Part shown: piece after piece, positions 6,329-31,646 of the stretch
How positions within the stretch are numbered: position 1 is the first letter of the stretch
How the letters are laid out: every line of letters starts with the position of its first letter
IMG/VR virus record: IMGVR_UViG_3300017750_000053
Span: 1-31,646 of that record
Length of the DNA: 31,646 nt
From: a virus
Direction: 5' to 3' (one strand)
Program-made: the position numbers and the translations under genes
The notes under the pieces: generated by a model
The model's database searches: none
Seen by the model: the letters and a program-made list of their open reading frames with translations, nothing else
What the model was told of the DNA's origin: nothing

Positions 6329-6335
6329 GGAGATT

Positions 6336-7072: not shown

Positions 7073-7074
7073 TT

Positions 7075-7278: not shown

Positions 7279-7295
7279 TAAAGGAGAGCACAAAG

Positions 7296-8560: not shown

Positions 8561-8813
8561 GACAATAGCACTAGTATTTTTTGGTATAGTATCAATAGTA
8601 CAATTGTATGTAATAATAAATTTGTACAATAAAGTTGATTTCTTAGAACAAGTTTTAGATGGAACTTACACAACAATCCGTGATACAATACAAAACATGC
8701 AAGAGATCGATACATTGGGCTCTTTCGAGTCTGATGATGAAACAGGAACAACATTCGAAATGTTAAAAAAAGAAGTAGATAATTTAGACAACTTATTAGA
8801 AGGAAAAAAATAA
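8553..8813 (+). CDS. single-pass membrane protein, 86 aa
   Basis: Residues 3-27 form one transmembrane helix (ETIALVFFGIVSIVQLYVII), followed by an acidic, partly coiled-coil cytoplasmic part ending in a Lys pair. The ATG at 8553 is preferred over the TTG two codons earlier. AAAGGGG lies 10 nt upstream. Its stop shares one base with the sigma factor ATG. Role unknown. Confidence 0.6.
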   Translation: MIETIALVFFGIVSIVQLYVIINLYNKVDFLEQVLDGTYTTIRDTIQNMQEIDTLGSFESDDETGTTFEMLKKEVDNLDNLLEGKK

Positions 8814-9529
8814 TGCCACGTAAAAAATCAAAAACAAGAATGTATTTTCATGAAGGAACTGAGCAAGGAATTGTCGATTACAATGCTACAGATGACTGGA
8901 GAGAAAAGAATGCTATATACAATGAACATCTTAGACAACCGTTTGAAAAACTTGTAGAAAATATAATTCACACTTTTAAATTTTATCACTTTGATGTTCC
9001 TACAGAAACAGTAAAACATGAAGTTATATCTTTTATGATTACACGTTTGGACAAATATAAACAGGGTAAAGGAAAAGCATTTAGCTATTTTAGTGTTGTA
9101 GTTAAAAACTGGCTGATTTGCCATAATAACGCAAATTATAAAAAGATGAAAACACACACTGATGTGATTGACTTAAAACATAAAGATGTAAAGAAAGTTG
9201 TATACGAAGAAAAAGATATAGAGAAAAGAGAAGGCAGCATGTTTTATAACTCTGTTATTGATTATTGGAAAACAAATACAGAAACAGTTTTTAAGAAACA
9301 AAGAGATATTGATATTGCATATTCTATAATTGATCTTATGGACCGTGTAGAAAGTATTGAGATCTTTAATAAAAAAGCGCTCTACATTCTTTTAAGAGAA
9401 ATATCAGGTGCACAGACACAGCACATAACAAAAGTTCTTAATGTAATGAGAAATCATTTTAAAACATTAAACACACAATGGGAACAGAGTGGTTATATTT
9501 CAGCATCAGGATCTTCTAGGGCTTATTAA
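8813..9529 (+). CDS. 55: late-transcription sigma factor, T4 gp55-like
   Basis: Directs host RNA polymerase to late promoters, in T4 together with gp33 and the sliding clamp. The N-terminal part fits the region-2-like core of gp55 from marine T4-like phages: PFEKLVENIIHTFKFYHFD (43-61), then KHEVISFMITRLDKYKQGKGKAFSYFSVVVKNWLICHNN (68-106), the helix pair that recognises the -10-like late box. The remainder (to 238) is longer than T4 gp55 (185 aa), with a C-terminal helical part TQHITKVLNVMRNHFKTL. It lies just before the structural operons, whose gaps hold a repeated ATATTTATA box. The call rests on motifs recalled, not on a search. Confidence 0.8.
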   Translation: MPRKKSKTRMYFHEGTEQGIVDYNATDDWREKNAIYNEHLRQPFEKLVENIIHTFKFYHFDVPTETVKHEVISFMITRLDKYKQGKGKAFSYFSVVVKNWLICHNNANYKKMKTHTDVIDLKHKDVKKVVYEEKDIEKREGSMFYNSVIDYWKTNTETVFKKQRDIDIAYSIIDLMDRVESIEIFNKKALYILLREISGAQTQHITKVLNVMRNHFKTLNTQWEQSGYISASGSSRAY

Positions 9530-10230
9530 TGTCTCTTCTAAGAATAAAGCATAATAAAAACGAAGAAGAATTTGATCCGTTTGAAGATTATAATAGACCT
9601 GATGAGTGGGAAAATGACACTAGGTTAGATGATCTAGATTGGATTTCAAGATATGAACATGAAGCTAAAATATTAGAATATAGAATTAATGAACATAAAG
9701 TAAAAACTATATTAGAAATTGGAAGTGGGCCAGGAGGACTATGTAAGCACCTAGATGACTTAGGCGCATTAGATGGTATAACATACCACATGATTGATAA
9801 AAAGAACGCTAAAAAATCACACGACAAGAGAGGGTGGCCTGGTGAAATATTTGTTAAAGATCTTAGAGAAGGTGTTAGCTCTGATGGATTATTGGAAAGT
9901 TATGATTTAATAATTTGTAATGATGTCCTAGAACACTTACCCAATCCTACAAAAGTTATACAAGATCTATATCATCTAAACACAGATAAATTATGGATAA
10001 GCATACCAAATTGGAGAATGGGACATCAATTCTTTTATAGAGGTTTATTTGACTATGATAATTTTCTTTATTTTATGAGAATTCATAGATACACAGGTGT
10101 TGCAATTAATGATTCACCGTTAAAAACACCGATGTATGCAAAACTCGAGAGTGAGGAATTATTACCTGATAAATTCGTTAGGAGCTGGAATTGGTATCTG
10201 TTATTTGATAAGATGGTTCCAAATAACTAA
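9529..10230 (+). CDS. class I SAM-dependent methyltransferase
   Basis: SAM-binding motif I is ILEIGSGPGG (residues 61-70). Asp90 ends the second strand (YHMID) and would contact the ribose. The motif IV strand is YDLIICNDVLEHLPNP (125-140), typical of small-molecule or protein methyltransferases of the Methyltransf_11/23 type. The DNA-MTase motifs (DPPY, NPPY) are absent. The C-terminal third is aromatic (WRMGHQFFYRGLFDYDNFLYFMRIHRY) and may form the substrate lid. The substrate is unknown. It is the last gene before the baseplate operon and starts on the stop of the sigma gene (TAATG). Confidence 0.85.
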   Translation: MSLLRIKHNKNEEEFDPFEDYNRPDEWENDTRLDDLDWISRYEHEAKILEYRINEHKVKTILEIGSGPGGLCKHLDDLGALDGITYHMIDKKNAKKSHDKRGWPGEIFVKDLREGVSSDGLLESYDLIICNDVLEHLPNPTKVIQDLYHLNTDKLWISIPNWRMGHQFFYRGLFDYDNFLYFMRIHRYTGVAINDSPLKTPMYAKLESEELLPDKFVRSWNWYLLFDKMVPNN

Positions 10231-10254
10231 ATAAATATAATACTGTATTTCTCT

Positions 10255-10263
10255 ATATTTATA
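10255..10263 (+). promoter_or_regulatory. putative late promoter box ATATTTATA (copy 1)
   Basis: Ends 17 nt before the ATG of the first baseplate-operon gene. It is the same 9-mer found before three other structural genes and the reverse complement of TATAAATAT, the core of the T4 late box. Confidence 0.5.
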
Positions 10264-10280
10264 ATCAAAAGGCTAGTTTT

Positions 10281-10658
10281 ATGTCTAACGATTATGAAAT
10301 ATATGAAGGTATGAATCTTTCAGATCTCTTTAAGAAGATCGATAACAATACCAAAAGAAACAAAGTACAGATAGAGAGTTTAATACAAGAGCTCATGGTG
10401 TTTATAAAAGATCCCAATACTGCAATTCAATTGTTTCCTATGATCAGTGATTTTACAGAAGCTAATATAAGAAATGATGAGCTTCTAGTAAAGCTCGCCG
10501 CAGTTGTGCAACGCGTTATGTCTGTTGAAGGCAAGTCTGATTCTACAGAATTTGGTCTTTCTGATGAAGAGAAGAAGGGTATTCTAGACAGAATAAGCAA
10601 AGCGACAGAAACAATACAAAATGAGGTAGATGATATAAACCTACAAATACAGGAGTAG
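10281..10658 (+). CDS. conserved small structural-region protein, 125 aa
   Basis: A helical protein, with a likely coiled coil at the C-terminus (KKGILDRISKATETIQNEVDDIN). The middle reads IQLFPMISDFTEANIRNDELLVKLAAVVQRV. It is the first gene after the late-type box and 3 nt before the gp5-like gene, so it may be a hub chaperone or a small tail component. I recognise it only as a protein common near gp5 in marine T4-like phages. Confidence 0.55.
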   Translation: MSNDYEIYEGMNLSDLFKKIDNNTKRNKVQIESLIQELMVFIKDPNTAIQLFPMISDFTEANIRNDELLVKLAAVVQRVMSVEGKSDSTEFGLSDEEKKGILDRISKATETIQNEVDDINLQIQE

Positions 10659-10661
10659 TAA

Positions 10662-11870
10662 ATGTCTAGTAATACTGTCGAACGTTACGGCGGAATCTGG
10701 ATAGATAAAGTCAATAAACTCAATCCTGTGGAATTCTCCGATGATCTTGTTACCGAGAAGCGTGCAAGAGATATTGGTTTAGACCTAGTTGATAAACTAA
10801 AGACTGCATCAATTCAAATCATTTCAGCTGAGGTGACAGGTGTAATATACAACGAGAAAGATGTCGAGAAAAATGCAGGCGTCAATGATCGTCATATCGG
10901 GTGTATTCAAGTACAATGCTATCCAGGGTTTGATCTACCGACTGATTGGATTTATCCGTTAGAAGCTAACATTAAAAAATATCCCGTTTACGGTGAGATG
11001 GTTGCAATCATATGTTTAGGAGACATCGCATATTATTTCAATCCTATCAATGTAAGAAGATCATCTAATCATAATTCAGTAGTCGGCGCAACAGATGTTG
11101 GTGGTAAAAGACGTAAACACGACAGTAAAGATTATAAAGAAAAATTAAAGGGATTTAAGCCTGAGCCAACAAGACCTACAAGACAGATTGCTGGAGATAT
11201 TGTACTAGATGGTAGAGAGAGACAATCAATAAAATTAGGTAAAAACGATAATGTAGAGGCGAAGTCCGGACCAATAATAAAATTAAGAATAGCAAATACC
11301 GATACTGATGATGAAAAGATAGACGCACCAAAGCCAGAAAATATTGTAAATGATGCAGGATCAATTTATATTTTAGAAAAAGAAGAAATTAGACTAACTC
11401 CTGCAAGGAATGTAAACAGTGAAATAACACCATCGACACACACTGGTAAACAAATATTAATAGACTCTGATAAATTAGTTTTCAATACAAAAGAAGGCAA
11501 CAACAATAATGTAGGAATATATTCTGGATATAATTTAAATTTAATATCTAAAAATGATTCTCATATTATAGGTAAAAGAGTTTATGTTGGTGCAGAACCA
11601 GAAGCTGTAGGCGTTCAGCCAGTTGTTTTAGGTGATGCACTAGTTGACCTACTATTTTATATGGCACAAGCTTTAGAATCTGCAGGAACTGATTTACAGT
11701 CTGGAACAGGAATAAGTCCGTTGGCAGGTGCGCCTAGTATTGATCCTCTAAAACAAAAGGCTGGTGCTTCAATGAGTTCTTTGTTCGGATCAGGAGGAAA
11801 ATTTAGTAAACAAAATTTAAAAGAAGCTTTATTAAGCAAACACGTTTATGTGTCTAAACAAGGGAAATAA
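10662..11870 (+). CDS. 5: baseplate central spike/hub protein, gp5-like OB-fold
   Basis: In T4, gp5 forms the membrane-piercing spike: OB-fold, lysozyme, then triple beta-helix. Here residues about 50-130 fit the OB-fold (HIGCIQVQCYPGFD, then KKYPVYGEMVAIICLGDIAYYFNPIN), followed by AGDIVLDGRERQSIKLG and SGPIIKLRI, patterns typical of the shortened gp5 of marine T4-like phages. No lysozyme catalytic region (Glu-x8-Asp/Cys) is present. Residues about 235-320 are beta-rich repeats (GSIYILEKEEIRLTPA, KQILIDSDKLVFNTKEG) fit for the spike. The C-terminus (SKQNLKEALLSKHVYVSKQGK) is helical. The protein overlaps its downstream neighbour by 1 nt. The lack of lysozyme is a known feature of this phage group. 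Confidence 0.65.
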   Translation: MSSNTVERYGGIWIDKVNKLNPVEFSDDLVTEKRARDIGLDLVDKLKTASIQIISAEVTGVIYNEKDVEKNAGVNDRHIGCIQVQCYPGFDLPTDWIYPLEANIKKYPVYGEMVAIICLGDIAYYFNPINVRRSSNHNSVVGATDVGGKRRKHDSKDYKEKLKGFKPEPTRPTRQIAGDIVLDGRERQSIKLGKNDNVEAKSGPIIKLRIANTDTDDEKIDAPKPENIVNDAGSIYILEKEEIRLTPARNVNSEITPSTHTGKQILIDSDKLVFNTKEGNNNNVGIYSGYNLNLISKNDSHIIGKRVYVGAEPEAVGVQPVVLGDALVDLLFYMAQALESAGTDLQSGTGISPLAGAPSIDPLKQKAGASMSSLFGSGGKFSKQNLKEALLSKHVYVSKQGK

Positions 11871-13393
11871 TGTTAGATTGTAATAATATAACTAGTCTTA
11901 GAAGGACACTTTCTGGTGGTGCAAAACTTCTTATGGGAGATCAAATATTAATTGGTTGCGCTGTAAAAGTTTCTAACAACTTCATAAAAGAACCTATAAC
12001 TGAAGAAGAAGAAAAACAAAACAAAGCTGTTGCTGAGATTTTTGATATTCCTCAAAATCAATTAGAAATGGATCCTCTTGTGACAACACCAATTGGAACA
12101 AAATTAAATGCTCCTGAGCCGTTTTTTATAACTGAACCAGGTTGGGAAGTTTGTGAAGGATCAACTGTAGAAGTTATACATGCAGGTTATGGTGGTGAGG
12201 TTAGGCTTTTTGGAGCTGACGCTGATTTGTTACAAGGTGACTTAATTGTCAATGGTACAATTATTGGACCTGATGGCACTGTTTATGAAGCACCGTTCAC
12301 AATCCCAGGGCCGGGATTTAAAGTTGGGCCTGATGGTGCTGTAATATCACCTGCTGGTGGAGGTGAAGAAGACTACTGTAGTTTACAAGAGCTAGCAGGA
12401 AATGTTAGGTCTGACACAAAAAGAGTAATAGATCTGGACATAGACTTTGACCTGGACTTAGACATTCCTGGTTTAGATATGACTTGGTGGGTTCCTATAC
12501 AAGAAAAAATTAATGAAGTAACACAACTACAAACTAAACTTGTAGGAAAAGTACAAATGCTAGCAGACAAAGCAAAGTATGATCCAAAAGGAGATGTTTG
12601 TAAGTACAGACCAGAAGCACAAAAACTATTACAGCTTATAAGAGATATACAAAGAATATTATCACAAATAAGAAAAGTAGTACAAGCTGTAAGGACTGCT
12701 GTTAACACTGTAAAAAGAATTATAAGAATAATTGAAAGTATATTTATGGTTGGCAAGGCAGTCAAGCTAGCACTAGTATACATGATGATAAAACAAATGG
12801 TTTTAGGTTTGGCACAAATGATAGATACACTTGCAAGATCAATATTAGACGCAAACAGAGTTTTGCCCACATTAATAGCAACACTATCAGCAATGATACA
12901 GGCATGCGCTAATCAGAGAGGTTTGGAAGATGGCTTATCAAAAGAAGATTGTGAAGCATTAGGCGGCACTTGGATAGAAGGTAAGAGAAAAGGTGACATG
13001 GGTGATGGAAGTGCTGGTAGATATGGAGATGAGTTAGACGCAGAAGTTTCGAAACTAAATGATGATTTAGACCTATATTTAAAACCAGGACTAGCTTTAA
13101 GTCCTGGAGATTTAATTACTGGTGGATGTGTAGAGTTTGAAAACCAAAAAGTATATGTTGGAGCTATTCCGCCAGAAGTTGAACAAGAAGAAGATCACAC
13201 ATATCAAGTGGAATCTTTTGAAATACCAGGCGAAGGTTGGAAAGTTTGTAGTGAAGGAGCATCAGGTCAGTCTGAAAATGCTACAATTTCTGAACAAGAA
13301 ATGAGAGCAATACTTGATGCACAAATAGTTGATATATCTGCATGCTTGACAAGAATAGAAGATATTCAAGCAACTGCAGATTTTATAGAGTAA
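11870..13393 (+). CDS. baseplate-region protein with three internal repeats, 507 aa
   Basis: I do not recognise this protein. It shows three degenerate copies of a beta module with the pattern GD.I..G..V followed by F.I..PGW.V...G: residues 23-100 (LLMGDQILIGCAVKV; FFITEPGWEVCEGS), 123-158 (GDLIVNGTIIGPDG; FTIPGPGFKVGPDG) and 413-465 (GDLITGGCVEFENQ; FEIPGEGWKVCSEG). Between copies 2 and 3 lies a run of alternating Asp and Leu (DLDIDFDLDLDI, 188-199) and a long helical region (about 208-350) with amphipathic and hydrophobic segments, including 292-325. It contains paired Cys residues. Its place between the hub and the wedge genes suggests a hub- or tail-tube-associated component. Confidence 0.6.
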   Translation: MLDCNNITSLRRTLSGGAKLLMGDQILIGCAVKVSNNFIKEPITEEEEKQNKAVAEIFDIPQNQLEMDPLVTTPIGTKLNAPEPFFITEPGWEVCEGSTVEVIHAGYGGEVRLFGADADLLQGDLIVNGTIIGPDGTVYEAPFTIPGPGFKVGPDGAVISPAGGGEEDYCSLQELAGNVRSDTKRVIDLDIDFDLDLDIPGLDMTWWVPIQEKINEVTQLQTKLVGKVQMLADKAKYDPKGDVCKYRPEAQKLLQLIRDIQRILSQIRKVVQAVRTAVNTVKRIIRIIESIFMVGKAVKLALVYMMIKQMVLGLAQMIDTLARSILDANRVLPTLIATLSAMIQACANQRGLEDGLSKEDCEALGGTWIEGKRKGDMGDGSAGRYGDELDAEVSKLNDDLDLYLKPGLALSPGDLITGGCVEFENQKVYVGAIPPEVEQEEDHTYQVESFEIPGEGWKVCSEGASGQSENATISEQEMRAILDAQIVDISACLTRIEDIQATADFIE

Positions 13394-14728: not shown

Positions 14729-16726
14729 ATGGCTATCGATCAACAAAGACCAAAAGATATTAATTTTCTAAACAAAGATTTTACAGGATTACGAAGTGAT
14801 CTTATTGAGTATGCTAAAACATACTTTCCTGCATCATACTCAGACTTTAATGAAACTAGTCCTGGAATGATGTTTATCGAAATGGCTGCTTATGTAGGTG
14901 ACATACTTTCATTTTATATCGATGAACAATTTCGTGAATCTTTATTGGCTTATGCAGAAGAAAGAAAAACTGTCTTCGATATAGCACAATCATACGGATA
15001 TAGACCAAAAATTTCTACACCTTCAAATGTTACAGTTGATTTCTTTCAAACAGTACCAGCTACAGGAACTGGTGATACAGTAGTACCAGACTTTAGATAC
15101 GGTCACAGAATCAAAGAAGGAACTGTCATAGCTTCAGACCAATATAGTAAAACATTTAGAACAGTTAGTGAAGTTGATTTTAGTACATCAGGCTCATTGG
15201 ACCCTGTTGTTGTGGAACCTTATGAAATTGACGGAACAATAACAAAATATCTCTTAAAGAAACAAGCAAGAGCTGTTAGCGGTGAAGTTATAACAGAAAC
15301 TTTTACATTCGGTTCAGCTAAAGCTTATGATATGGTCACGCTGGCAAATAAAAATGTATTAGAAATAATATCTGTAACTGATGGCGGTGCTAGTAAGTGG
15401 TATCAAGTTGAGTCACTTGCACAAGATTTAGTTTATCAAGAAGTTAGAAATGATGCTGAATTCGATCCTAATTTGGCAGCTTTTAATGACACTACACCTT
15501 ACATGATTAAATTGTTAAGGACAAAAAAGAGATATAAGTCTTACATAAAATCAGATGGATCATATCAGCTAAGATTCGGATCAGGAACTGCAACAGAAAA
15601 TGATGAAGAAGTGATACCTAATCCTTCAACAGTCGGAAATTCAAATGTTAATTCTGACTTTTTAAATTCTAATTCTGCATTAGATCCTGCTAACTTTTTG
15701 GAGACAGCTGTTTATGGTGTTGCACCAGCAAACACGACACTTACAATAAAGTATTCTGTTGGTGGTGGCGTTGATGATAATGTTCCTTCAAACAGTATTA
15801 ATTCTTTAAGGAGCATAACTTCAGAAATAAACAATACAGGATTAGACGCTACCTTGGTAGAAGAATCACAAGCATCAATATCTGTTAACAATCCTGGACC
15901 TGCTACAGGCGGAAAAGGTTCAGAAACAATAGATGAAATAAAAGAAAATGTAAAACAGTTTTTTCAAGCTCAATCAAGAGCAGTAACAAAACAAGATTAT
16001 ATTACAAGAATTTATAGCTTACCTGCAAAATATGGTAATGTTGCAAAAGTTTACATCACACAAGATGATCAATTAAATTCAGGTGAAGGTGTAATACAAG
16101 GTGATGTTATTACGCCAGAAACTTTACAGACAGAATTTATTGACAAAGGCGAATCATTGAAAGTTTCTGATTTAGAAGTTAGAGTCCCTAATCCTATGGC
16201 ATTAAACTTTTATGTTTTAGGGTATGATAACAACAAAAAACTTGTAAACGTAAATCAAGCGACAAAAAGAAATTTAAAAACTTATATGGGACAGTACAGA
16301 ATATTAACTGATGCTATAAACTTAAAAAATGCTTATGTGATTAATATAGGTGTTAGATTCACAATATACGCAAAAAGAGGATATAACAAAGAAGAAGTAA
16401 TTTTTAAATGCATACAGAAAGTTAAAGAATATTTTAATGTTGATAAGTGGCAAATAAACCAACCAATAATGCTTTCTGATGTTGCTTATCAGGTGTCGCT
16501 TGTAGACGGTGTAAATAGTGTTGTGCCTCCTGTTGCTGATAATCCTGATGGTAATTTAATAGTTATAACAAATAAGTTTGAAACTGCTAGCGGATATAGC
16601 GGCAATATTTTTGACATATCAACAGCAATAAAAAGTGGAGTAGTTTATCCTTCATTAGATCCTTCAATCTTTGAAGTAAAATTTCCAGATATTGATATTA
16701 TTGGTAAGTGTTTAGGAGACTATTAA
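14729..16726 (+). CDS. 6: baseplate wedge protein gp6 (baseplate J-like)
   Basis: gp6 forms the ring that holds the baseplate wedges. The N-terminal region has the family signature DFNETSPGMMFIEMAAYVGDILSFY (about 45-69) followed by the helix with FRESLLAYAEERKTVFDIAQSYGYRP. The baseplate J-like part lies around 390-450, with IDEIKENVKQFFQAQSRAVTKQDYI and a Tyr-Gly-Asn-Val turn. The C-terminal part (about 520-640) is the alpha/beta dimerisation region (KKLVNVNQATKRNLKTYM...). The length of 665 is close to T4 gp6 (660). It shares one base with the next gene. Confidence 0.93.
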   Translation: MAIDQQRPKDINFLNKDFTGLRSDLIEYAKTYFPASYSDFNETSPGMMFIEMAAYVGDILSFYIDEQFRESLLAYAEERKTVFDIAQSYGYRPKISTPSNVTVDFFQTVPATGTGDTVVPDFRYGHRIKEGTVIASDQYSKTFRTVSEVDFSTSGSLDPVVVEPYEIDGTITKYLLKKQARAVSGEVITETFTFGSAKAYDMVTLANKNVLEIISVTDGGASKWYQVESLAQDLVYQEVRNDAEFDPNLAAFNDTTPYMIKLLRTKKRYKSYIKSDGSYQLRFGSGTATENDEEVIPNPSTVGNSNVNSDFLNSNSALDPANFLETAVYGVAPANTTLTIKYSVGGGVDDNVPSNSINSLRSITSEINNTGLDATLVEESQASISVNNPGPATGGKGSETIDEIKENVKQFFQAQSRAVTKQDYITRIYSLPAKYGNVAKVYITQDDQLNSGEGVIQGDVITPETLQTEFIDKGESLKVSDLEVRVPNPMALNFYVLGYDNNKKLVNVNQATKRNLKTYMGQYRILTDAINLKNAYVINIGVRFTIYAKRGYNKEEVIFKCIQKVKEYFNVDKWQINQPIMLSDVAYQVSLVDGVNSVVPPVADNPDGNLIVITNKFETASGYSGNIFDISTAIKSGVVYPSLDPSIFEVKFPDIDIIGKCLGDY

Positions 16727-18155: not shown

Positions 18156-21100
18156 ATGCCAATTGATCCAAAACTTAGGAGAGGTCAATTACTTCCTAAA
18201 AAGGTAGCAGATTTTGTAACCTTGCCAGAAGGAAATGACTGGATCCCATTTAGAGACAGTGAAAGATACCCACAGTTTGAGACTGAAGGTTATGCATCTG
18301 TAAAATGGCCAGAAACCAATTTTGGTGCAGGTCAAAATGATTATGTAAGAGTAAATGTATTTGGTGAAGATGGATCACTAATAACAACTAGTTACTTAAA
18401 TCATAATGAATTCGACACAAATCAGGACAATGATTTACAATACCCTACTGTTGAGCTGGACACAGGAAAACTTTTACGTGACCTTGGATTTAGAAGAGGT
18501 AGATTTCGTGTACAATTCTCTTTTTATAGAAACATGTTTGGAAGCCCATTTCCTCTTCTTGTTAATAATGATGAAAAGATTTATTTAGGTGGATTCGAAG
18601 AAAATGAATTAGGAAAAATATCTGCATTAGATCCACATATTGGTTCTGATACAAATATTGGAGACAGATTATATCCAAAAGAAGACAAAGCAACATTAGT
18701 AAAAATATCTTCTGACAGAACAGAAATAGTATTATCACCTCCTTTTATAAATGATACAGAATATCTAGAAAAATTTAGAATAGCCGCATATACTTGTTTA
18801 AATGATTTTGCAGATGTTGGGCAAATAGCAATCTTTAGTGATGGTGAAGATTCCAATAGGATAACATTACAAGGCTATGACACTGTTCCTAAGTCTTATA
18901 TTAACGGGATGATAAGAATCAACAATGCTTACTTTTTAGGAAATAGAGTAACACCTGCGATAGCAGCAGAATATGTTGTTGAACCTTCTTTGACAACTGT
19001 TGACAAGACACAGAATTTATTACAAGGTAGGTTTCTAGATAGTGACTATCAATGGAGACCACATAGTGTTTATAAGGGTGGTGTAAATTCTATATCGATA
19101 GAAAATCCAAAACTTATGAAAGTAGATACTGTAATAGAACAATCTCCAGTTGGAAATCAATGTGTAAGATTAGAATACCAAACTACTGAGTCTGAAAATC
19201 CTAATTCAGCAAATAGATCTTTTGGTTTGTCTCCTTTGTTAAAAATTTACAGGCCAATTGACGGCGAAGAAATGACATTTAGTGTTTATGTCAAAGCAGA
19301 CACTGCAGCAATTGGTTCAAAAGTTAGCTTATTAGCTCATGCAGGACCTTGGAGTCAAGAAGGAACAACAAAGCACTCACAAAAAGTAGAGATGACAGGC
19401 AAATGGCAAAGAATTACATTAACTTTTATATTAAGAAATGTAGGTGAAGAAAATGATTTAATTCACTTAAGAGCAACACACTTTCCAGATGGTGCATATG
19501 ATACACAAAATGAAACAACAATAGTTGGTTTAGGGTATTTATACGCAGGAGCTCAGCTAGAATTAGGAAGTTCTGTAAGTGATTTTACAAGAAATGAAGA
19601 TGAGTCTTCTGAAACTATAGAAATAGCAGAAGCAGGAACAATTACTTTTTCTGACCCTGATGATTCTGACTCTACTAAAAGAAGAATCTTAACAGCTGTA
19701 CTAAATAATACTGATGATCCTTTTGAAAGAAAAATGATCGGCAGTAAAATAATCATAAATGATGGTATTGCAGTAGATGACTTTTCTTCTCAACTAACGG
19801 TTGTTGATACAGATCATAGAGAAGTACGAAAATTATTTGTTGTTCCTGATGAGGAACGCTCTATACCTGGTTCCTATATTGGAAGTACAGAGTATAAAGG
19901 CATAACAATTGAGTGGGACAAATCTTTAAACGAAGCAATATGGATTCTTGGTGAAAGATACGGTGATAGAATATGGTCTTCTGGATGGAGTGCAGCACCT
20001 TATGACCAGAAATGGAGTGAGGTTGGAACAGCACATATTGGTTACCACGCACAGTGGAGATACGGTGGTGTTGAGGGTGAGAATGCACCTTGTATGTATT
20101 TCCCAGATTTAAATTACCAAGAAGAAATTTTAGAGGCTAGAAAGCAAGCTTTTATCGCAGCAGCAAATGCAGAGACAGGTTATTATGTAAGTAGAGATGA
20201 AGATGATCCTAGAATATCAGGACAATATTATGATAAAGAGTGGTGGAAACACAGGTATCAAGCAATCGCAACTAATAGAGGCGGTGTATCTGGATCATCT
20301 AGCACAATAGGTCCATTGGCGCGTTATGGCGCAAAACCAGGAGACACTGTAAGAATATCTTGGCAACAAAAATCTAGACCTGCAGCACCTAATTTTGATG
20401 AAGGTGGTAGAAAAGGAGCGATGGTAAGGTTATACCACTGGTACAAGAACGTATATGAAGCACCTCCAGCTCCTGTCGTATCAGCGTTTGAGGTTAGACA
20501 AGAACAAATACAAATGATGAAACCGATCCCGTCATTTAGGCAGACAGATCAAGATGGTACACAACTTCTTGTTAAGGTCGACGGAACAAATGCTCCTGAC
20601 ACTAAATTTAATAATAAGACAATATCTGAAGAAGTATTTTATTTGAGAAAAATAGAATTAAATGGATTTGAAAGCAGAGATGCAATAGGTGTATTTACAC
20701 CAGGTGCAGGATTTAAAACATATAGACTTAACGGTGGATCGAGTGAAGAGGTAACTAGCGACGGTATTAATACACTAACGAATAACACTAATACAGTATG
20801 GTTCGGAAAAAATGATGAATTAGCTGCAAAGCTTAGTGTTTCAAACGGTTTATTATTTTCAAAACAAGTTGAAGATGTATCTGGCATTTTAGATGCAGCA
20901 GATGTTGTTCCTACAAATGAGCTTGAAACACCTGCTAACGCAGCTGTACTACCACCTGATATAGCACAAGGACTTACACGTGGAAAAGCAATCGGTGCAA
21001 TGTATAAGCCAACACAAAATCTTTTTGAGCTAGGATATAGACAATATCCAGAATTAGATCTTGGAAGAATTCCTACAGAGCCTAAACCTACATCACCGCC

Positions 21101-24100
21101 TGCAGGTGATTGGCAAGATAATTACGACATCTCCATAAAACAATTTAATATATTTGTATCAAGTACTGACTGGGAATTTAACGTTAACGCCGGAAGATGG
21201 AGAATTAAAAGAGATTTAAGAATTAACGGATGGGAATGGAATAATGAAACTGGTGAGTGGTATAACACTACATCTTCACCAGGTAGAGGCTTTATATTAC
21301 CTGCAATACAGACACTAGATGGGGACTTATATTTTTCAGAGGCTCTTGGATGGCTATGGACAGGAGTTGATTGGATTTCATGTTTAGATTTATGTAGAGA
21401 GACACCCTTCTTAGCACTAACAACGAATGATTCTCTAGAGACATATAATAAAAGAGCAACTACATATATTGACACAGTAAATGATTATGAAGTAATATCA
21501 TTTTACAATACAGGTGAACAATATTACCCATCTTACGATCTTATAAAAAATAGTAAAACACTTTCATCAAATGGTAAATTCCAATGGAAGGGAATATTAG
21601 GTTGGCAGTTTCAAGGTGATGGTGATGTGAGTTCTGATGGTAATAGTGCAACAACACTTCAGTGGACAGATGTTGCTTCAAGAAATATAGATGGCTCTAC
21701 ATCAGAAAGATTTAATAAGTACGTTGAGTGTTTTGAGCTTGATGAATGGGAAGAAGCACACGCTGATTTTGTAATACCTACTGATAATAGTTTTGGGTTG
21801 TATACAAATTCATCGATTTATGTTGTTGGCAACAGAGGTGGTTTTGGAGAGCTATGGGTTGACAAAGTTAGGATTGATATATTGTTAACTTCTAATGAAA
21901 GAGTAAAAGTTGATCAAACTGCAAAATTTGCTCCGCTCTCACTTACAATACAAGATGTGTTAGGAAATAATCAACTATTAGTTGAAGAAGAATATGATGA
22001 AGCTGCAAATGTTCAAGGTGGAATACAATCAAATCTTGCAGTAAACAAATACAGCGTATTTGGATCAGGATTCCAGATCGGATTCTTGGAAGCACCAGAA
22101 GATATATCACAAGTAATGGGAAGATACGAAGGAAAAATATTAGATGTTGATGGAAACACACTCATCGTAAACACATCGTACAGGGAGTATGGTGGTACAA
22201 TAGGCGCTGTTAGTGGAAGTGAAGACTCTCCAGACTTAAGTTTACCGTTCGAACAATACTTTATAAGATACAGGATAAAAGACGCAGATAACTTATACAC
22301 AAGAGTTGTTTTTGGGCCTGAAAGAGAAAGCTTAGTTATTAATTTTAAGCCACTCAATGTAACAAATTACCCAGGATCAATAGCATATAAGCTACTAGAT
22401 CCGCTGCCAGATTCAGTACAACAATTTGACACTGCGTATATTGTTAATGAAGTTACACCTGACTTATTTGAAGGTGTTGATTTAATTCCTTTTATTGATG
22501 AAGTATTACCTGAGACAGTTCTAAAAGCACCAAAGCTTGATGAGGCAGAACCTCTAATAAGAAGAAGAGAGACAGAGTATAGAAGTCACACAGACTTAGT
22601 TGGTGTTGAATTAGACACTAGAAAACAACTTGAAGATAAAATATTTAGTGGTAGCTTATTAGATGTTAGTGTTAATGTCGACTATAATCACTTTCAAAAT
22701 TTTTCACACTTTGGATCTGTTGAAAAGAGAATAAGAAATTTTAAAGATAAATTGACATCAATAGAATTAAACACACAAAAAAGTCAATCACTAGGCGGAA
22801 CAGGCGAACCGTACATTACAGGACAGGTATCAGGTGAATATGTTTCTGGTTCTGCTGATCAGCAAGAACATTGGGATTTAGAAAAGAGAAAAATTATAAA
22901 CGGCTTTGATGATTTTGAAAATTTTATGTATTTTAAATCTTCATCTTATATATCTTCATCTAATGGTATAGATTATGATAATGCTGCACCGAAATCAAGT
23001 GGAGATGGAACACTTACTTCTCCTTACCAGCTATATTCTGTTTCTAGCTCTAATTTTACTTCATGGTTTGATAATCAAATAGTCTCATCATCAACATATG
23101 ATAATACTAACATGAATAGGCTAGTTAATTTAACACCTGCTCATATTTCTTATGATGCTGATAATGAATCATTTGTCAGATTTATGGACATGATGGGTCA
23201 CCATTATGATGTAATTTGGACACACATCAAAGCTATGACTGATAGTCATGACAGGTCTGAAGACATAACAAAAGGCATATCTGCAGAATTAGTAAAACCT
23301 ATTGCAGAATCACTTGGCTTCAAAATGCAAGAAGGAAAAGATTTAGTTAGACTTCCTGAATACCAACTAGGGCTTCAGGAGTCAGGTTCAAATACAGGTG
23401 TTTTTAATATAAGATTCTCTAAGAAGTCTCAACAGGATATATCTAGAGAAATATGGAACAGATTACTATCAAGCATGCCTTATTTATTAAAAACAAAAGG
23501 TACAAAGCAAGGACTAAAAGGATTAATAGCAGCATACGGTATTCCAACATCTATATTAAGAATACAAGAGTACGGTGGTCCTAAAATCGAAGGTGGTACA
23601 CCTGAATTTGAGATTAAACAAAAGTATACGTATGCATTGCATTTAAAAGGTGCACAACAATTAGCAGCACCGTGGTACAGATCTCCGGAGACGCAAAGAG
23701 TTAACGATACAATAGAATTTAGATTTAAAACAGGTGTTGAACAAGACACATTAATTGCTTCTAAAAATAATACTACAAATCATATTGAGTCTGCAATCTA
23801 TATAAAAAATATTGACGGTCAAGATACAAAAGGTAAATTATCTTTCGCATTAAGTGGTAGTGAAGGTTTCTTTTCTGCAAGCTTAGACTCACTGCCAATG
23901 TATAATGATGAATATTGGTCTGTGATGATTAGAAGAAGGGCAGGTGAATCTGGCTTTACAAGCAGTTACGACGGAATGCAAATGACATCTGAAACTAGCT
24001 CTTTAACACAGAGTTTTGACATTTTTGCAGGTTACTATGACTCAGGTGTAGATGAAATTATTACAAAAGCATCTGCTAGTATTGATGTATCAGGATCAAG

Positions 24101-25748
24101 TGCACTCTTAAGCTGGTATGCTTCCAGCTCTACAGGCGATAATTATTGGCATATAGGTGGTAGAAAACAATCTTCAGAAGAGACAGCGTTATATGGATCA
24201 CAGTACACTGGCTCTATTATGGAATGGAGATACTGGCAAACACCGTTAACAGAATCAGCTTTCTTTAATCATGTATCTGCTCCAAAAGCAGTAAATGGTA
24301 ATCATCCAAGCTCATCATTTTATGATATGAATTTAAGACTTTCTATGGATGATAAAATTAATCTGAACTCTTCGCCAAACGGCATAAAAGATTATTCACT
24401 AACAGGCGGTCAACTTTATGCTACAGGATCAGGATTTGCAGATGAAATAAACTTTGAATCTGTTTCTGATAGACAAAAAGCTTTTACACCTTCAATAGGT
24501 CTTAATAAGACAAGTAATAAAATTAGAATAGAAGATGCAAAATTAAAGTTTCCTGATGGTGCTGATCCAGTATTAAGCACAACTGAAAGAGTAGAATTAA
24601 GCTCATATGATACAGCACCACTTGATAGTAATAAATTAGGAATATTCTTTGCACCATCAGATGTAATAAACGAAGATATAATTTTATCATTAGCAGACTT
24701 AGACTTTGGTTCTTATCTAGGAGATCCAAGAGATATGTATGCTGAACGTTATGATCACGGAAAATTAGATAGGATAGCAGATACATACTGGCAAAAATGG
24801 ACAACAAAATTTAATTTCTGGAATTATTTAAAACTTATAAAATATTATGATTTAAGTTTATTTGATCACTTAAGAAATATGTCACCTGCACGTGCTAAGA
24901 AAAATATAGGTATATTAATTGAACCTACAATCTTAGAGAGACCAAAAGTAATAGTTGGTAATAGACCATTCTTAGAAGATAAAACTTTTGATTCTAAACT
25001 TGACGTTATGGCACATTATTCTCAGAGTGGTGACAATGAATTTAGAAAAGGAAATATAACATATACTATAGCACACGAATTGACATCTTCAAATGATTAT
25101 TTTATAGCAAATCCGATAACGGGAACTTATGCACTTAAGAATGAATTTACTTCTAGCTTTGAAGAAAAAAGAGGAAAAATAGACACAATAGATTTTAGAG
25201 GCTATACAGGGTCTAGAGATGACCAACTAGTTGAACACACTTGGTCATTTTTAAATGAAGTTAGTACTAGTGCTGCAAAAAGTGATTATGGTACAGTTAG
25301 CTCATCACAAAGTCCTTACATATTAGATCAACTTAGATCTTTTGGAAGCAATCCGCTGATAGACCCATTGGAAAGAGACTATGCAAATACAGACAATAAA
25401 GTTCACACCGGTGGTGGATCAGATGTATTTTTTGAAATTTTACAACCAACAGCAACAGGCTCGGTGCTATCACATTTTAATAATGATAAAATATATCACT
25501 ACAGTTCTTCTGTAAGTAAATCGTTAGGTTTATATTATTCACAGTCTTTAGAAGTGAGTGATATTGATTCACTATTTACAACACATACAGGACTATTCAA
25601 TTTAGCTTATGGCGGCTGTCAAGAAGACGGATTAACTGTACCTGAAGGAAATGAGGTTGCGGTTGAAATATTAGAGGTTAATCCTTACGCTGTAACAACA
25701 ACTACATCGGGCGATTCGTTCGTTGATGTACAACTAGACAATGAATAG
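18156..25748 (+). CDS. giant modular baseplate/tail protein, 2530 aa
   Basis: Several modules are visible. Residues about 286-475 fit a carbohydrate-binding beta sandwich (MTFSVYVKADTAAIG, GKWQRITLTFIL, GYLYAGAQLELGS). Two Trp-rich stretches lie at about 588-660 and 1000-1075 (WRIKRDLRINGWEWN, EALGWLWTGVDW). Around 1668-1808 is a conserved tail-protein segment: FVRFMDMMGHHYDVIWTHI, then LLSSMPYLLKTKGTKQGLKG and YGIPTSILRIQEYGG, reminiscent of the 'small helical plus KGT' core of P2 gpI-like tail proteins. A LamG/concanavalin-type domain covers about 1821-2038 (TIEFRFKTG, YWSVMIRRR, YWHIGGRK, GSIMEWRYWQTPL). The position after gp6 is that of T4 gp7, a large peripheral wedge protein, though at 1032 aa T4 gp7 is far shorter. 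It probably connects the wedge with receptor-binding functions. No frameshift is seen over 7.6 kb. Confidence 0.75.
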   Translation: MPIDPKLRRGQLLPKKVADFVTLPEGNDWIPFRDSERYPQFETEGYASVKWPETNFGAGQNDYVRVNVFGEDGSLITTSYLNHNEFDTNQDNDLQYPTVELDTGKLLRDLGFRRGRFRVQFSFYRNMFGSPFPLLVNNDEKIYLGGFEENELGKISALDPHIGSDTNIGDRLYPKEDKATLVKISSDRTEIVLSPPFINDTEYLEKFRIAAYTCLNDFADVGQIAIFSDGEDSNRITLQGYDTVPKSYINGMIRINNAYFLGNRVTPAIAAEYVVEPSLTTVDKTQNLLQGRFLDSDYQWRPHSVYKGGVNSISIENPKLMKVDTVIEQSPVGNQCVRLEYQTTESENPNSANRSFGLSPLLKIYRPIDGEEMTFSVYVKADTAAIGSKVSLLAHAGPWSQEGTTKHSQKVEMTGKWQRITLTFILRNVGEENDLIHLRATHFPDGAYDTQNETTIVGLGYLYAGAQLELGSSVSDFTRNEDESSETIEIAEAGTITFSDPDDSDSTKRRILTAVLNNTDDPFERKMIGSKIIINDGIAVDDFSSQLTVVDTDHREVRKLFVVPDEERSIPGSYIGSTEYKGITIEWDKSLNEAIWILGERYGDRIWSSGWSAAPYDQKWSEVGTAHIGYHAQWRYGGVEGENAPCMYFPDLNYQEEILEARKQAFIAAANAETGYYVSRDEDDPRISGQYYDKEWWKHRYQAIATNRGGVSGSSSTIGPLARYGAKPGDTVRISWQQKSRPAAPNFDEGGRKGAMVRLYHWYKNVYEAPPAPVVSAFEVRQEQIQMMKPIPSFRQTDQDGTQLLVKVDGTNAPDTKFNNKTISEEVFYLRKIELNGFESRDAIGVFTPGAGFKTYRLNGGSSEEVTSDGINTLTNNTNTVWFGKNDELAAKLSVSNGLLFSKQVEDVSGILDAADVVPTNELETPANAAVLPPDIAQGLTRGKAIGAMYKPTQNLFELGYRQYPELDLGRIPTEPKPTSPPAGDWQDNYDISIKQFNIFVSSTDWEFNVNAGRWRIKRDLRINGWEWNNETGEWYNTTSSPGRGFILPAIQTLDGDLYFSEALGWLWTGVDWISCLDLCRETPFLALTTNDSLETYNKRATTYIDTVNDYEVISFYNTGEQYYPSYDLIKNSKTLSSNGKFQWKGILGWQFQGDGDVSSDGNSATTLQWTDVASRNIDGSTSERFNKYVECFELDEWEEAHADFVIPTDNSFGLYTNSSIYVVGNRGGFGELWVDKVRIDILLTSNERVKVDQTAKFAPLSLTIQDVLGNNQLLVEEEYDEAANVQGGIQSNLAVNKYSVFGSGFQIGFLEAPEDISQVMGRYEGKILDVDGNTLIVNTSYREYGGTIGAVSGSEDSPDLSLPFEQYFIRYRIKDADNLYTRVVFGPERESLVINFKPLNVTNYPGSIAYKLLDPLPDSVQQFDTAYIVNEVTPDLFEGVDLIPFIDEVLPETVLKAPKLDEAEPLIRRRETEYRSHTDLVGVELDTRKQLEDKIFSGSLLDVSVNVDYNHFQNFSHFGSVEKRIRNFKDKLTSIELNTQKSQSLGGTGEPYITGQVSGEYVSGSADQQEHWDLEKRKIINGFDDFENFMYFKSSSYISSSNGIDYDNAAPKSSGDGTLTSPYQLYSVSSSNFTSWFDNQIVSSSTYDNTNMNRLVNLTPAHISYDADNESFVRFMDMMGHHYDVIWTHIKAMTDSHDRSEDITKGISAELVKPIAESLGFKMQEGKDLVRLPEYQLGLQESGSNTGVFNIRFSKKSQQDISREIWNRLLSSMPYLLKTKGTKQGLKGLIAAYGIPTSILRIQEYGGPKIEGGTPEFEIKQKYTYALHLKGAQQLAAPWYRSPETQRVNDTIEFRFKTGVEQDTLIASKNNTTNHIESAIYIKNIDGQDTKGKLSFALSGSEGFFSASLDSLPMYNDEYWSVMIRRRAGESGFTSSYDGMQMTSETSSLTQSFDIFAGYYDSGVDEIITKASASIDVSGSSALLSWYASSSTGDNYWHIGGRKQSSEETALYGSQYTGSIMEWRYWQTPLTESAFFNHVSAPKAVNGNHPSSSFYDMNLRLSMDDKINLNSSPNGIKDYSLTGGQLYATGSGFADEINFESVSDRQKAFTPSIGLNKTSNKIRIEDAKLKFPDGADPVLSTTERVELSSYDTAPLDSNKLGIFFAPSDVINEDIILSLADLDFGSYLGDPRDMYAERYDHGKLDRIADTYWQKWTTKFNFWNYLKLIKYYDLSLFDHLRNMSPARAKKNIGILIEPTILERPKVIVGNRPFLEDKTFDSKLDVMAHYSQSGDNEFRKGNITYTIAHELTSSNDYFIANPITGTYALKNEFTSSFEEKRGKIDTIDFRGYTGSRDDQLVEHTWSFLNEVSTSAAKSDYGTVSSSQSPYILDQLRSFGSNPLIDPLERDYANTDNKVHTGGGSDVFFEILQPTATGSVLSHFNNDKIYHYSSSVSKSLGLYYSQSLEVSDIDSLFTTHTGLFNLAYGGCQEDGLTVPEGNEVAVEILEVNPYAVTTTTSGDSFVDVQLDNE

Positions 25749-27889: not shown

Positions 27890-28936
27890 ATGTCAGTATT
27901 TCAAAACTTTGATACAGAAAACGATATAAAAACAGGACAGATAAGCGTAGTCTCATCTGGGATGTGGTCTGGTGGTGTTGGAACACTAACAAACTTTTAC
28001 ACATCTTCAACACAAACAGGAAGTACTGGTGAACATTACTTTGACATTTACAACGGTGTCGTAGGAACAAATGCCACTGCTTCAGTACAATTCTCACTTG
28101 CTTTTGGAAGTTATGGTGGAAGTGGTTCACTATCAGGTGATAATGATAATGCAGCTTCAAAAGCAATCTATAGACAATTAAGAAATTTATTATTACCACA
28201 AGGCACTGAAAAATTCCAAGCAGGTGCTTATCAAGGTGGTGGAACAGATGCAGATACTGATACAATATTCGCAGTCAGTTTAAACAGAGGAAGACTAAAA
28301 GAAAAGATGGATCCAGGTAACTGGGAACTTAGGCTTTCAGGATCTACAGGTAAGGTATTACATCTTATAGATGACAGTGGTGCTACTAACGATCCTAATG
28401 TAAGAAACACTGCTAGAGAATTTAATATTGTATCTGGTTCTATTTCTTCTGGTAATGCAGTTATTGGTGGTGCATCAACAGCATCATTTGGAAAATTCTA
28501 TCCTGAATCAGGATTATTAATTTTAGATGCTACACTATTATTAGATGATGCTAACGGTATCCCAATGACTGGTTATAATACCGCATCAAATGTTAACGGT
28601 AATAATAACCAAGCATTTTATAATGCAATCGCAGGTAACAGTGAAAACACAGCTACTGGCTACTTTGCAGCAAGGCGTGAAGAACAAATTAAGTCTACAC
28701 ACTATTTCTGTAGAGTAAGACATAATCAATATAACCACAGTCAAAATCCTACATATACGACAGGAGATGCTGGCGACTTAACGATACCTTCGTTTAGAAA
28801 TGATCCTAAGTCTTACATAACTACAGTAGGTTTGTATAACAGCGCAAATGAATTATTAGCAGTTGCAAAACTATCAAAACCTGTATTAAAGTCGACTAGT
28901 AGAGAGGCATTAATTAAAGTAAGATTAGACTTCTAA
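27890..28936 (+). CDS. virion-type protein with shared C-terminal module, 348 aa
   Basis: A beta-rich, Ser/Gly/Thr/Asn-rich protein, as in phage fibres or decoration proteins, with no transmembrane segment. The end (about 300-348) reads SYITTVGLYNSANELLAVAKLSKPV then ALIKVRLDF, and this module recurs at the end of the next gene product. A middle part has aromatic-rich strands (THYFCRVRHNQYNHSQNP). A strong intrinsic terminator follows. Function unknown; most likely a tail or capsid accessory protein. Confidence 0.65.
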   Translation: MSVFQNFDTENDIKTGQISVVSSGMWSGGVGTLTNFYTSSTQTGSTGEHYFDIYNGVVGTNATASVQFSLAFGSYGGSGSLSGDNDNAASKAIYRQLRNLLLPQGTEKFQAGAYQGGGTDADTDTIFAVSLNRGRLKEKMDPGNWELRLSGSTGKVLHLIDDSGATNDPNVRNTAREFNIVSGSISSGNAVIGGASTASFGKFYPESGLLILDATLLLDDANGIPMTGYNTASNVNGNNNQAFYNAIAGNSENTATGYFAARREEQIKSTHYFCRVRHNQYNHSQNPTYTTGDAGDLTIPSFRNDPKSYITTVGLYNSANELLAVAKLSKPVLKSTSREALIKVRLDF

Positions 28937-29037: not shown

Positions 29038-30183
29038 ATGTTTAGAGATATAGATCCAGATGACAAGAGAGTGACTCCGATAAAAGTACATAAGAGATTT
29101 ATGGCACAAAAATTCGGAGCAACAGATAACACACAGTATTTAGGTGTTATGTCAACTCAAGGCACTAGGGCAACAAGAGCTCAATTACACCAATTTTCTA
29201 CAGGTTCTCTATCAGAGTCCGGGCCACAATTTTCTTTAGTTTCTGGTGGTGTTACGTATACAAAATATGGTTATCTTATCTGGCATGAAGTATACAATAT
29301 GTTTTTTAGATATGCAATCACTGGAAGTGATAAAAGTACTACATCTCCTCAACCTCAATTTGTATTTGATAAATATCATAGGCCGTGGGGAAGAGGAAGA
29401 ATACAGTCATCAAGCAATACAGTGCCAGACTATCAAACACTAAAAATTAGAACATACCACGATCAGTTTAATGTTTTTAGCATACCACAAAGATTATATG
29501 GTGAAGGTATAAAGACAGGTTCTATAGAAATAACAGACTACTCTACAAATGGTGTAATATCAATTAAAGATGATGGCTACGGTAATTTATATGATACAGA
29601 CTTTGAAACAAATTATTTAAGCGGTAGTCCTGAGGCTGTTAACGGATCTGGCTCTGCAATAGGTGTTGTAAATTACGATTTAGGTTTAGTAATAGTAACT
29701 GATACAGGAAGTTATGGAACTGTAGGGCAGGGATCTGGTGCCAACGGTTGGAAGCTTGAATGGGATTCAACAAAGACAATACAAGAATATGAATTTGGAT
29801 GTATTATACCACCAAACACATTTAATAGAACTAGAAACATAAGTATAACACCTGGTAGAAGTGGTAGCATGAATATTAATTCAACCGTTGTTACACAAGA
29901 CGATTATTATTGGAAAGGTAATAGCTATGTAACGCAATCTGCAATACAAAAACTTAGAGCAATATTGCCAAGTCCTGCAGAAAGTGCGTACAATACAACA
30001 AGCGCTTACGAGGCAGCAACAGATGTAGAATCTTTTGCAACTCATTCATTTTTTGCTCCTTATATCACATCAATTGGCTTGTATAACGATTTAAATGAAT
30101 TATTGGCAGTTGCTAAAGTTTCCCGGCCAATTAGAAATGACCCGGAATTAGCTTTATCATTTGTTGTAAGATTTGATATTTAA
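29038..30183 (+). CDS. virion-type protein with shared C-terminal module, 381 aa
   Basis: A beta-rich protein with many Thr, Ser, Gly and Tyr residues. The last 40 residues (YITSIGLYNDLNELLAVAKVSRPI ... SFVVRFDI) match the end of the preceding gene product. The N-terminal half is different (KRFMAQKFGATDNTQYLG...). A structural role is inferred from context. It is the first gene after the strong terminator and the late-type box. Confidence 0.65.
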   Translation: MFRDIDPDDKRVTPIKVHKRFMAQKFGATDNTQYLGVMSTQGTRATRAQLHQFSTGSLSESGPQFSLVSGGVTYTKYGYLIWHEVYNMFFRYAITGSDKSTTSPQPQFVFDKYHRPWGRGRIQSSSNTVPDYQTLKIRTYHDQFNVFSIPQRLYGEGIKTGSIEITDYSTNGVISIKDDGYGNLYDTDFETNYLSGSPEAVNGSGSAIGVVNYDLGLVIVTDTGSYGTVGQGSGANGWKLEWDSTKTIQEYEFGCIIPPNTFNRTRNISITPGRSGSMNINSTVVTQDDYYWKGNSYVTQSAIQKLRAILPSPAESAYNTTSAYEAATDVESFATHSFFAPYITSIGLYNDLNELLAVAKVSRPIRNDPELALSFVVRFDI

Positions 30184-30198: not shown

Positions 30199-30372
30199 AT
30201 GGAAAGTATTTATAACGAAATTAAAGATTTGTGGGATGTGTTTGAAGAGAACCATGCAACACATTCAGAAAAAGGTAATAAAGCTGCAGGAGGAAGAGCA
30301 AGAAAAGCTATCGGTGAAATTAAAAAGCTGGTAACTGAGTATAGAAGAGCTTCAGTAGCTAAGGGTAAGTAA
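30199..30372 (+). CDS. histone H1-like (Hc1-type) mini-protein, 57 aa
   Basis: Sequence features: MESIYNEIKDLWDVFEENHA at the start, then KGNKAAGGRARKAIGEIKKL (about 25-44) and VTEYRRASVAKGK. The segment K-G-N-K-A-A-G-x-R-x-R-K followed by a Lys-rich helix is the signature of bacterial histone H1-like proteins (Hc1-type), known from Bacteroidota, Chlamydiae and some others. Members bind and compact DNA. The host-range hint is weak. AGGAG stands upstream. In a late region such a protein might help pack or organise DNA, which is inference. The gene was found by direct reading as it is short. Confidence 0.6.
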   Translation: MESIYNEIKDLWDVFEENHATHSEKGNKAAGGRARKAIGEIKKLVTEYRRASVAKGK

Positions 30373-30386
30373 TTAGGAGAAAAAAG

Positions 30387-31646
30387 ATGTTAAAGAAAAT
30401 TATCATAGGTTTATTAATGACATCATCTTTGTTTAGCCAGGTAAGTGATAACAACTTTTTTGTAAACTTTTTTAAGTATTCAACAGCTTATGCTAGTTTT
30501 AGTTTAAATGCTCCAAGATACCAAGATGATAGATTTGCAATTGTAGGTGGTTTATCTACAGGCGATTTAGTATTTGAAAGGTCTGAAAGAGAGTTAAAAC
30601 CTGACTTTCAAAAATCTTTTGGTATTAGAAAAATTGGCAGATTTAAATATGAACCTAAAAGAGGTGTTAGAAACGCAGGAAAAGGCGGAGAGTGGTATGA
30701 TGGATCAGAACAAAATGCTAACGAAAGTGCTACATTTGGACCTGTTAAAGGTTGGGAATATTTAGTTAAGTGGTCAGAAGGTAGACAATGGGGCAATGAA
30801 TACTTAAATCAAGAATATTGGTTAAGGTATGTTGGTTCGTGGTACGTTGCTAAAGTAGCTTGGACTGAATTAGGTTTAGAAGAAATAAACTACGGTTCTG
30901 CAGACTTTAGATTAAAAGCAAATGCTATGGACAATAAATTTAGCTTTAGCGCAGGAGTAAAACACAGACAACACCCAGTATATGGATTTGATGCTGCAAT
31001 TTTAGACACTACTTGGTATAGAGGACAATGGTGGAATTTTGCTGAAGATGCATTTGGAATCGATGATAATATGTGGTTTGATCCAACAATGCAAGATGAA
31101 GATGGTAACTGGTTAAAACAACAACTATACGAATATGATCCTGCTACAGGTGATTTGAGACCAATTGAAGGCGGTGGACCATTTTGGAATGAAGGTGGTG
31201 AATATTGGGGACACGATTGGTTATGGAGAGATGATAATGGTCGCATCTTCGCATATACAGATAGAGAATATTTTCTTTATCATTTTCCAGGTATGTTAGA
31301 AGAATACATTGGTGGAGTCAAGAAAGATTTAGGATTTCAGCGCGAAACATCTATAGTTTTAGGTGCTGACTTTTATCATTATGGTGATAGCTGGTGGCTA
31401 CATGCTTGGGGTAATTGGATGCCGTATCACTATGGACATGATACATATTCTTATCACAATGCAGATGCTTATGCACAACACAAAGAAGATAAAAAGAAGC
31501 CACACGAATTTATGTTTATGGATCCAATGTGGATGCAATGGCATGATTACGATTTTGGTGCGATATTTGGTGTTAAGATAAAGGACAATCTTGGAGTTTT
31601 CGCAGAAGGCAAATATTTATATTATTGGGAACGTCCTGCTTATGAT
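30387..31646 (+). CDS. secreted, outer-membrane-barrel-like protein (3' truncated by window)
   Basis: Starts at an ATG with TTAGGAG upstream. Residues 1-18 form a signal peptide (MLKKIIIGLLMTSSLFSQ, cut expected near Ser/Gln). The mature part is very rich in Trp, Tyr, Phe, Gly, Asp and Asn, with alternating-residue strands (DNKFSFSAGVKH; ETSIVLGADFYHYGDSWWLHAWGNWM; DYDFGAIFGVKIKDNLGVFAEGKYLYYW) separated by polar loops, as in beta-barrel outer membrane proteins. No stop occurs in 420 codons to the window end, so the protein is at least 420 aa. A signal peptide in a phage late gene is unusual and means a product made in the infected cell and sent to the envelope. Function unknown. Confidence 0.7.
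   Translation, partial: MLKKIIIGLLMTSSLFSQVSDNNFFVNFFKYSTAYASFSLNAPRYQDDRFAIVGGLSTGDLVFERSERELKPDFQKSFGIRKIGRFKYEPKRGVRNAGKGGEWYDGSEQNANESATFGPVKGWEYLVKWSEGRQWGNEYLNQEYWLRYVGSWYVAKVAWTELGLEEINYGSADFRLKANAMDNKFSFSAGVKHRQHPVYGFDAAILDTTWYRGQWWNFAEDAFGIDDNMWFDPTMQDEDGNWLKQQLYEYDPATGDLRPIEGGGPFWNEGGEYWGHDWLWRDDNGRIFAYTDREYFLYHFPGMLEEYIGGVKKDLGFQRETSIVLGADFYHYGDSWWLHAWGNWMPYHYGHDTYSYHNADAYAQHKEDKKKPHEFMFMDPMWMQWHDYDFGAIFGVKIKDNLGVFAEGKYLYYWERPAYD

Follow-up and report, generated by a model that had tools for sequence, protein, structure and literature searches.

A conserved, predicted outer-membrane β-barrel and its gene module in large, mostly marine phages

A gene that runs off the end of a 31,646-bp IMG/VR virus record (the window, meaning the whole stretch of DNA analyzed here) very probably encodes a β-barrel protein directed to the outer membrane of the host. 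It is a coding gene whose product has a signal-like N-terminus and a computed barrel fold, and it belongs to a conserved family with a conserved module of genes downstream. Our preferred reading, which we hold with middling confidence, is that the product is an outer-membrane protein specific to phages that acts within an envelope module, most likely as a ligand-specific channel or receptor. A first-pass annotation had proposed a late phage gene for a secreted outer-membrane barrel, of undescribed function, for the infected cell. All of this stands apart from "late", which can only be surmised.

The gene and its envelope signals

The gene and its nearest surroundings are as follows.

30199..30372, + strand: small gene directly upstream, 57 aa, with a histone H1-like Hc1 domain (Pfam PF07432, E = 2.7e-16)
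30375..30379, + strand: Shine-Dalgarno AGGAG, read from the sequence
30387..31646, + strand: predicted outer-membrane β-barrel gene, 420 codons present, the last ~12 codons and the stop lying past the contig end
30387..30440, + strand: predicted Sec-type signal peptide, residues 1-18 (MLKKIIIGLLMTSSLFSQ), from the hydropathy maximum and family alignment, with an approximate cleavage point

The frame starts with an ATG at 30387 and is open through the final base, 31646, so that the location, strand, frame and length of at least 420 residues first annotated agree with both the sequence and its relatives. Several relatives are full-length (L005:10001-11296 is one), and those with more sequence give a complete protein of about 432 residues; the window copy is therefore short by only about 12 (…IKLGINYQWMGF). 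Against its two nearest relatives, each about 95% identical, the gene has dN/dS values of 0.071 and 0.068, indicating strong purifying selection. These low values, together with hundreds of relatives, show that the ORF is not a chance frame.

The protein begins M-L-K-K, and residues 5-15 are its most hydrophobic 11-residue stretch. The signal stretch ends in SLFSQ, with FGQ or FAE in relatives, and the complete relatives inspected open with positively charged residues, after which comes a brief hydrophobic run closing in FSQ, FGQ, FAE or similar. Hydropathy and family alignment thus bear out the signal peptide noted at first pass and give the protein the N-terminal Sec signal of outer-membrane barrels. 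Elsewhere no stretch of 19 residues reaches the hydrophobicity of a membrane helix, and the mature part has no Cys. The aromatic content, 20.2% (W 5.5%), is the highest among window ORFs above 140 aa, the others having 2.4-15.1%. The C-terminal aromatic signature for BAM was read from relatives, the window copy being cut before that point; they usually end in NYQWMGF, NYQFVGW or NYQFVGF, while a few finish in L or LN or carry 2-4 extra residues.

Searches of Pfam, NCBIfam, PHROG and PDB sequences with the barrel protein returned no matches, and the porin family models of Pfam and NCBIfam did not match it either. One of ten family members had a sub-threshold barrel match (TIGR04219, E = 0.07). 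No family or database match describes a role for the protein, in keeping with the undescribed function proposed earlier.

Predicted structure

A first AlphaFold2 model, from 22 close sequences, was too poor for use (pLDDT 42). A second subfamily of the barrel protein was found at 44-50% identity. With 66 diverse mature sequences, AlphaFold2 gave a model with 12 long barrel-type strands (pLDDT 69.5, pTM 0.63), so that structure prediction, a check suggested at first pass, yields a 12-strand barrel of medium confidence. The model was built on L214, a relative 95% identical to the window protein, and maps onto the window gene as follows.

30483..30977, + strand: predicted barrel strands 1-7 and their loops (residues 33-197), L214 model
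30978..31334, + strand: ~119-residue insert separating strands 7 and 8 (residues 198-316), with helices and a conserved beginning, from the L214 model and family profile; probably extracellular by strand parity
31335..31646, + strand: predicted strands 8-11 and the start of strand 12 (residues 317-420), L214 model
31437-31526, + strand: putative outer loop after strand 9, L214 model

Foldseek found 104 PDB matches at E ≤ 0.001, and the best 50 are all outer-membrane barrels. The best are BcsC (7e-7), FapF (2e-6) and NanC (4e-6, TM 0.63 by target), with NalP, OmpG and EspP also among the matches; the modest TM-scores are attributable to the large loops. The long antiparallel strands are even in number, as in outer-membrane barrels, and the PDB matches suggest with medium confidence that the 12 strands close. 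In a library of viral structures the best match was an unnamed viral protein, A0A516LKJ4 (25% identity, E = 1.6e-22), after which come mostly phage proteins with outer-membrane barrel annotations; among the matches with a name at E ≤ 0.001, most are labelled outer-membrane proteins. Signal, model and fold matches together support the first-pass claim that the infected cell carries the protein in its outer membrane.

The aromatic β-strand pattern reported with that claim fared less evenly. The aromatic content is high, but the pattern is not visible in the single sequence, which has 11 alternating segments against 11.3 expected, not above shuffles. On the family profile alternation does appear, with scores of 0.45 on the model strands, 0.25 in shuffles and 0.15 on segments outside strands (p < 0.001).

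Two known classes of barrel do not fit. The protein has no Plug match in Pfam and, with about 430 aa and 12 strands, is not a TonB-dependent receptor. Strand 1 begins about 13 residues into the mature protein and there is no passenger, which sets it apart from autotransporters.

Distribution and virus lineage

To date the family is one of uncultured viruses: at least 579 IMG/VR stretches encode relatives, and it was not found among INPHARED phages. The carriers are large and mostly marine, with T4-like myovirus contigs of up to 216 kb. Two pattern scans of 84,980 species genomes, which reach only relatives that share the conserved peptides, turned up no host homologue. Among 13 large contigs (77-216 kb), picked for carrying the barrel gene, each has one full or partial copy and one has an extra fragment.

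The window's virus is itself a myovirus, as judged from a baseplate wedge-like gene.

14729..16726, + strand: baseplate wedge-like protein, by tblastn to Flavobacterium phage immuto and Microcystis phage Mel-JY01

The T4-like assignment rests on the baseplate wedge, gp32 and a family B DNA polymerase, whose nearest cultured counterpart is that of Microcystis phage Mel-JY01 (44%). A 120-kb contig had no terminal repeats when checked as a complete genome. The C-terminal part of a second barrel copy lies at its far end, suggesting tandem copies as in L059, where two barrel genes, one per subfamily, stand in tandem (10001-12557). In L034 a second-subfamily frame is broken at a short repeated stretch (10560-10660), either a pseudogene or an assembly error.

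The signal endings FSQ, FGQ and FAQ, a TonB receptor of the CarboxypepD type and a weak sorting-tail match beside a barrel-like gene of another phage, L329, point to a putative host of the Bacteroidota/Marinimicrobia type. One contig encodes a phage tmRNA with the tag GDSQPSYAYAA (L320:5845-6248, - strand) together with tRNA-Cys and tRNA-Ala.

Upstream genes

In most loci the barrel gene is preceded by a gene for a giant protein and by two probable fibre genes that are paralogues. The pair in the window is as follows.

27890..28936, + strand: paralogue of the 29038..30183 gene
29038..30183, + strand: probable fibre/adhesin-type gene, syntenic upstream in most relatives, its function by position only

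The Hc1-like gene sits between these fibre-like genes and the barrel gene. In L319 the giant protein (4505-9445, - strand), the positional equivalent of window 18156-25748, has a Hint/Vint domain (PF14623, E = 1.6e-16).

Such neighbors would suit a virion component, a fibre or adhesin encoded beside the tail genes, as in the window, and in most relatives, the barrel gene comes straight after baseplate-like and probable fibre genes. We regard this as very improbable. The signal peptide, the outer-membrane barrel fold and the C-terminal F/W are not those of a tail fibre or virion adhesin, which would have a fibre fold and no signal peptide; the AlphaFold2 model and the Foldseek matches to outer-membrane barrels give no support to that fold, which was one of the outcomes that would have told against the first-pass reading. 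In L054, L075, L086 and L090, moreover, the gene lies away from tail genes, with PhoH- and UvsE-like genes (identified by eye) close by. Since the upstream neighbors vary in this way, the barrel gene and those downstream appear to move as a unit.

The same variation bears on timing. The position after baseplate-like and probable fibre genes is what would make the gene late, but other contigs differ and a T4-type late promoter is absent upstream of it in the window and present at only 2 of 98 loci.

The downstream module and possible functions

The genes that follow the barrel gene form a conserved block. All 48 loci with enough sequence encode a membrane protein of about 200 aa and a secreted thioredoxin-like protein (PF00085, E = 1.8e-6), and 41 of the 48 have a lipoprotein-type gene. 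A Popeye/cNMP-binding membrane protein is often found as well; that of L082 (13114-13767) matches PF04831 (E = 1e-14) and PF00027 (E = 4e-14). The ~200-aa membrane protein had been considered MshEN/PilB-like, for which Pfam gives no support. Type IV pilin-like genes are present in 25 loci, up to four in a row. Four tandem pilin/pseudopilin-like genes are found at L054:15343-17411, L043:13399-15352, L075:16864-18850 and L090:13058-14965.

The pilins raise the possibility that the barrel is a conduit for export or display, working with phage pilins and secreted proteins or in the manner of CsgGF, for transport across the outer membrane or release. Four tandem pilin-like genes lie downstream in many of the 25 pilin-bearing loci, N_methyl domains score over the cut-off in 8 of the 13 large contigs, and several top Foldseek matches (BcsC, FapF) are exporters of polysaccharide or amyloid. 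The marine phage Melnitz, furthermore, encodes CsgGF (PMC9004378). We nevertheless think a conduit unlikely. A pilus would not fit through a monomeric barrel of 12 strands, and many barrel-bearing loci have no pilin block. The virus contigs encode no pilus-assembly ATPase over the family cut-off, only sub-threshold matches of P-loop type, so the phage pilins would depend on host machinery.

A second possibility is superinfection exclusion, in which the barrel would replace, mask or block a host receptor and rival phages would fail to adsorb. The Lc porin of phage PA-2 is a precedent, although T4-like lytic phages usually achieve exclusion by other means. The outer-membrane location given by the AlphaFold2 model and Foldseek suits such a role, as does the lipoprotein-type gene after the barrel gene in most loci; T5 Llp excludes at the envelope by blocking FhuA (PMC9586334). 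Conservation in the family is harder to reconcile with it. With a periplasmic C-terminus, strand parity would have the large insert and the strand-9 loop face outward, and large portions of these predicted outward regions are conserved rather than diversified. The first 31 positions of the insert match the barrel in conservation, 31 positions out of the full 119 scarcely vary, and the insert as a whole is not hypervariable; variation is seen in the middle of the insert and in the strand-9 loop. The conserved start of the insert, its near-invariant positions and a dN/dS of 0.07 fit a fixed ligand better than a surface in an arms race. On balance exclusion seems improbable, if worth weighing.

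Ligand binding or uptake, our preferred reading, is ranked first on these conserved outward parts and on the company the barrel keeps. A Plug domain or TonB-dependent receptor is encoded in 5 of the 13 large contigs, which suggests that these viruses make a habit of bringing outer-membrane transporters with them. One such receptor (L324:10270-13056, - strand) has 929 aa with Plug and CarboxypepD-like domains.

We infer a route. The host Sec system would export the protein and its signal would then be removed. In the infected cell's outer membrane the host BAM machinery would fold the protein into a 12-stranded barrel, leaving the conserved ~119-residue insert and the loop after strand 9 exposed outside. 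There it could act as a ligand-specific channel or receptor, altering uptake or surface display by the cell to the benefit of the phage. It would be one part of a phage envelope module with the lipoprotein, the membrane protein, the secreted thioredoxin-like protein and, often, the type IV pilins. The module could instead serve surface display or export.

Comparison with known systems

Few families are known in which phages bring their own outer-membrane proteins. Lc of phage PA-2, NmpC and Lom of λ are phage or prophage barrels put into the host envelope, and in this the present protein resembles them. Lc and NmpC are 16-strand general porins and Lom is an 8-strand OmpX-type barrel, all from known families and temperate phages. 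Unlike them, the protein described here has 12 predicted strands and a large insert, matches no family and is carried on T4-like myovirus contigs. CsgG is a nonameric pore of 4-stranded subunits, whereas ours is of the monomer type, with 12 strands, and matches no family. The CsgG/CsgF pore of Melnitz (PMC9004378) is similar in being an outer-membrane pore from a marine T4-like phage. The megaphage Mar_Mega_1 carries a SusC/TonB-dependent receptor (PMC9723777) and is likewise a large uncultured marine phage with an outer-membrane transporter. Such receptors have 22 strands and a plug, and the relatives here carry one as a separate gene (L324). NanC, FapF and the NalP translocator share the 12 strands and the overall barrel by Foldseek, but identity is 5-8%, the phage protein has neither a Pfam match nor a passenger domain, and the ~119-residue insert is particular to it.

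With CsgGF, SusC and Llp as precedents, the family is not a new category. Its members are strongly conserved, occur commonly in ocean virus collections and resemble no named family. An unmatched conserved barrel next to conserved secreted and membrane genes indicates that these viruses probably rebuild the host surface, and suggests that a lineage of large, mostly marine phages reprograms it during infection. The gene is a concrete handle on uptake, exclusion or export.

Cysteine-rich micropeptides

Of 98 distinct contexts, 26 have Cys-rich micropeptides directly beside the barrel gene, and both subfamilies are represented. The peptides have 11-43 aa, roughly 30-60% Cys, and their own Shine-Dalgarno (MCDCCDCCNCCCK and MLNACKNPDCKCENCNCKNCDC are examples), and the Cys are often preserved through TGT/TGC changes. 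That count comes from a wider search beside the barrel gene than our scan for short ORFs in which Cys made up at least 40%. The scan gave 16 in the loci covered, none of them more than about 110 bp from the barrel gene, versus 7 on reversed sequences; position relative to the gene was determined for the forward 16. Sites include L054:9917, L075:9937, L012:9937, L037:9928, L093:11313 and L261; in L076 the micropeptide is just 3' of the barrel gene. None was seen beside the gene in the window, where the Hc1-like gene is upstream and the downstream side is off the contig.

By their sequences the micropeptides are candidates for metallothionein-like or Cys-codon leader peptides. The family also has four invariant His, and strand parity puts three of these close to the outer mouth. 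Taken with the adjoining peptides, these His raise the idea, which we consider quite doubtful, that the barrel handles a metal or metal-ligand together with phage metallothionein-like micropeptides. If so, the phage would bind or import a scarce metal and retain it inside the cell to serve its own replication.

Related micropeptides in other phages lie beside IscU/IscA-like genes (L345 and L346, named by eye), and in L329 one adjoins a different barrel-like gene. There the micropeptide follows a secreted 284-aa protein (8197-9048), PorV-like by eye and without a Pfam match. The same contig encodes a secreted 986-aa protein (5228-8185) with a weak, below cut-off match to Por_Secre_tail (E = 0.0025).
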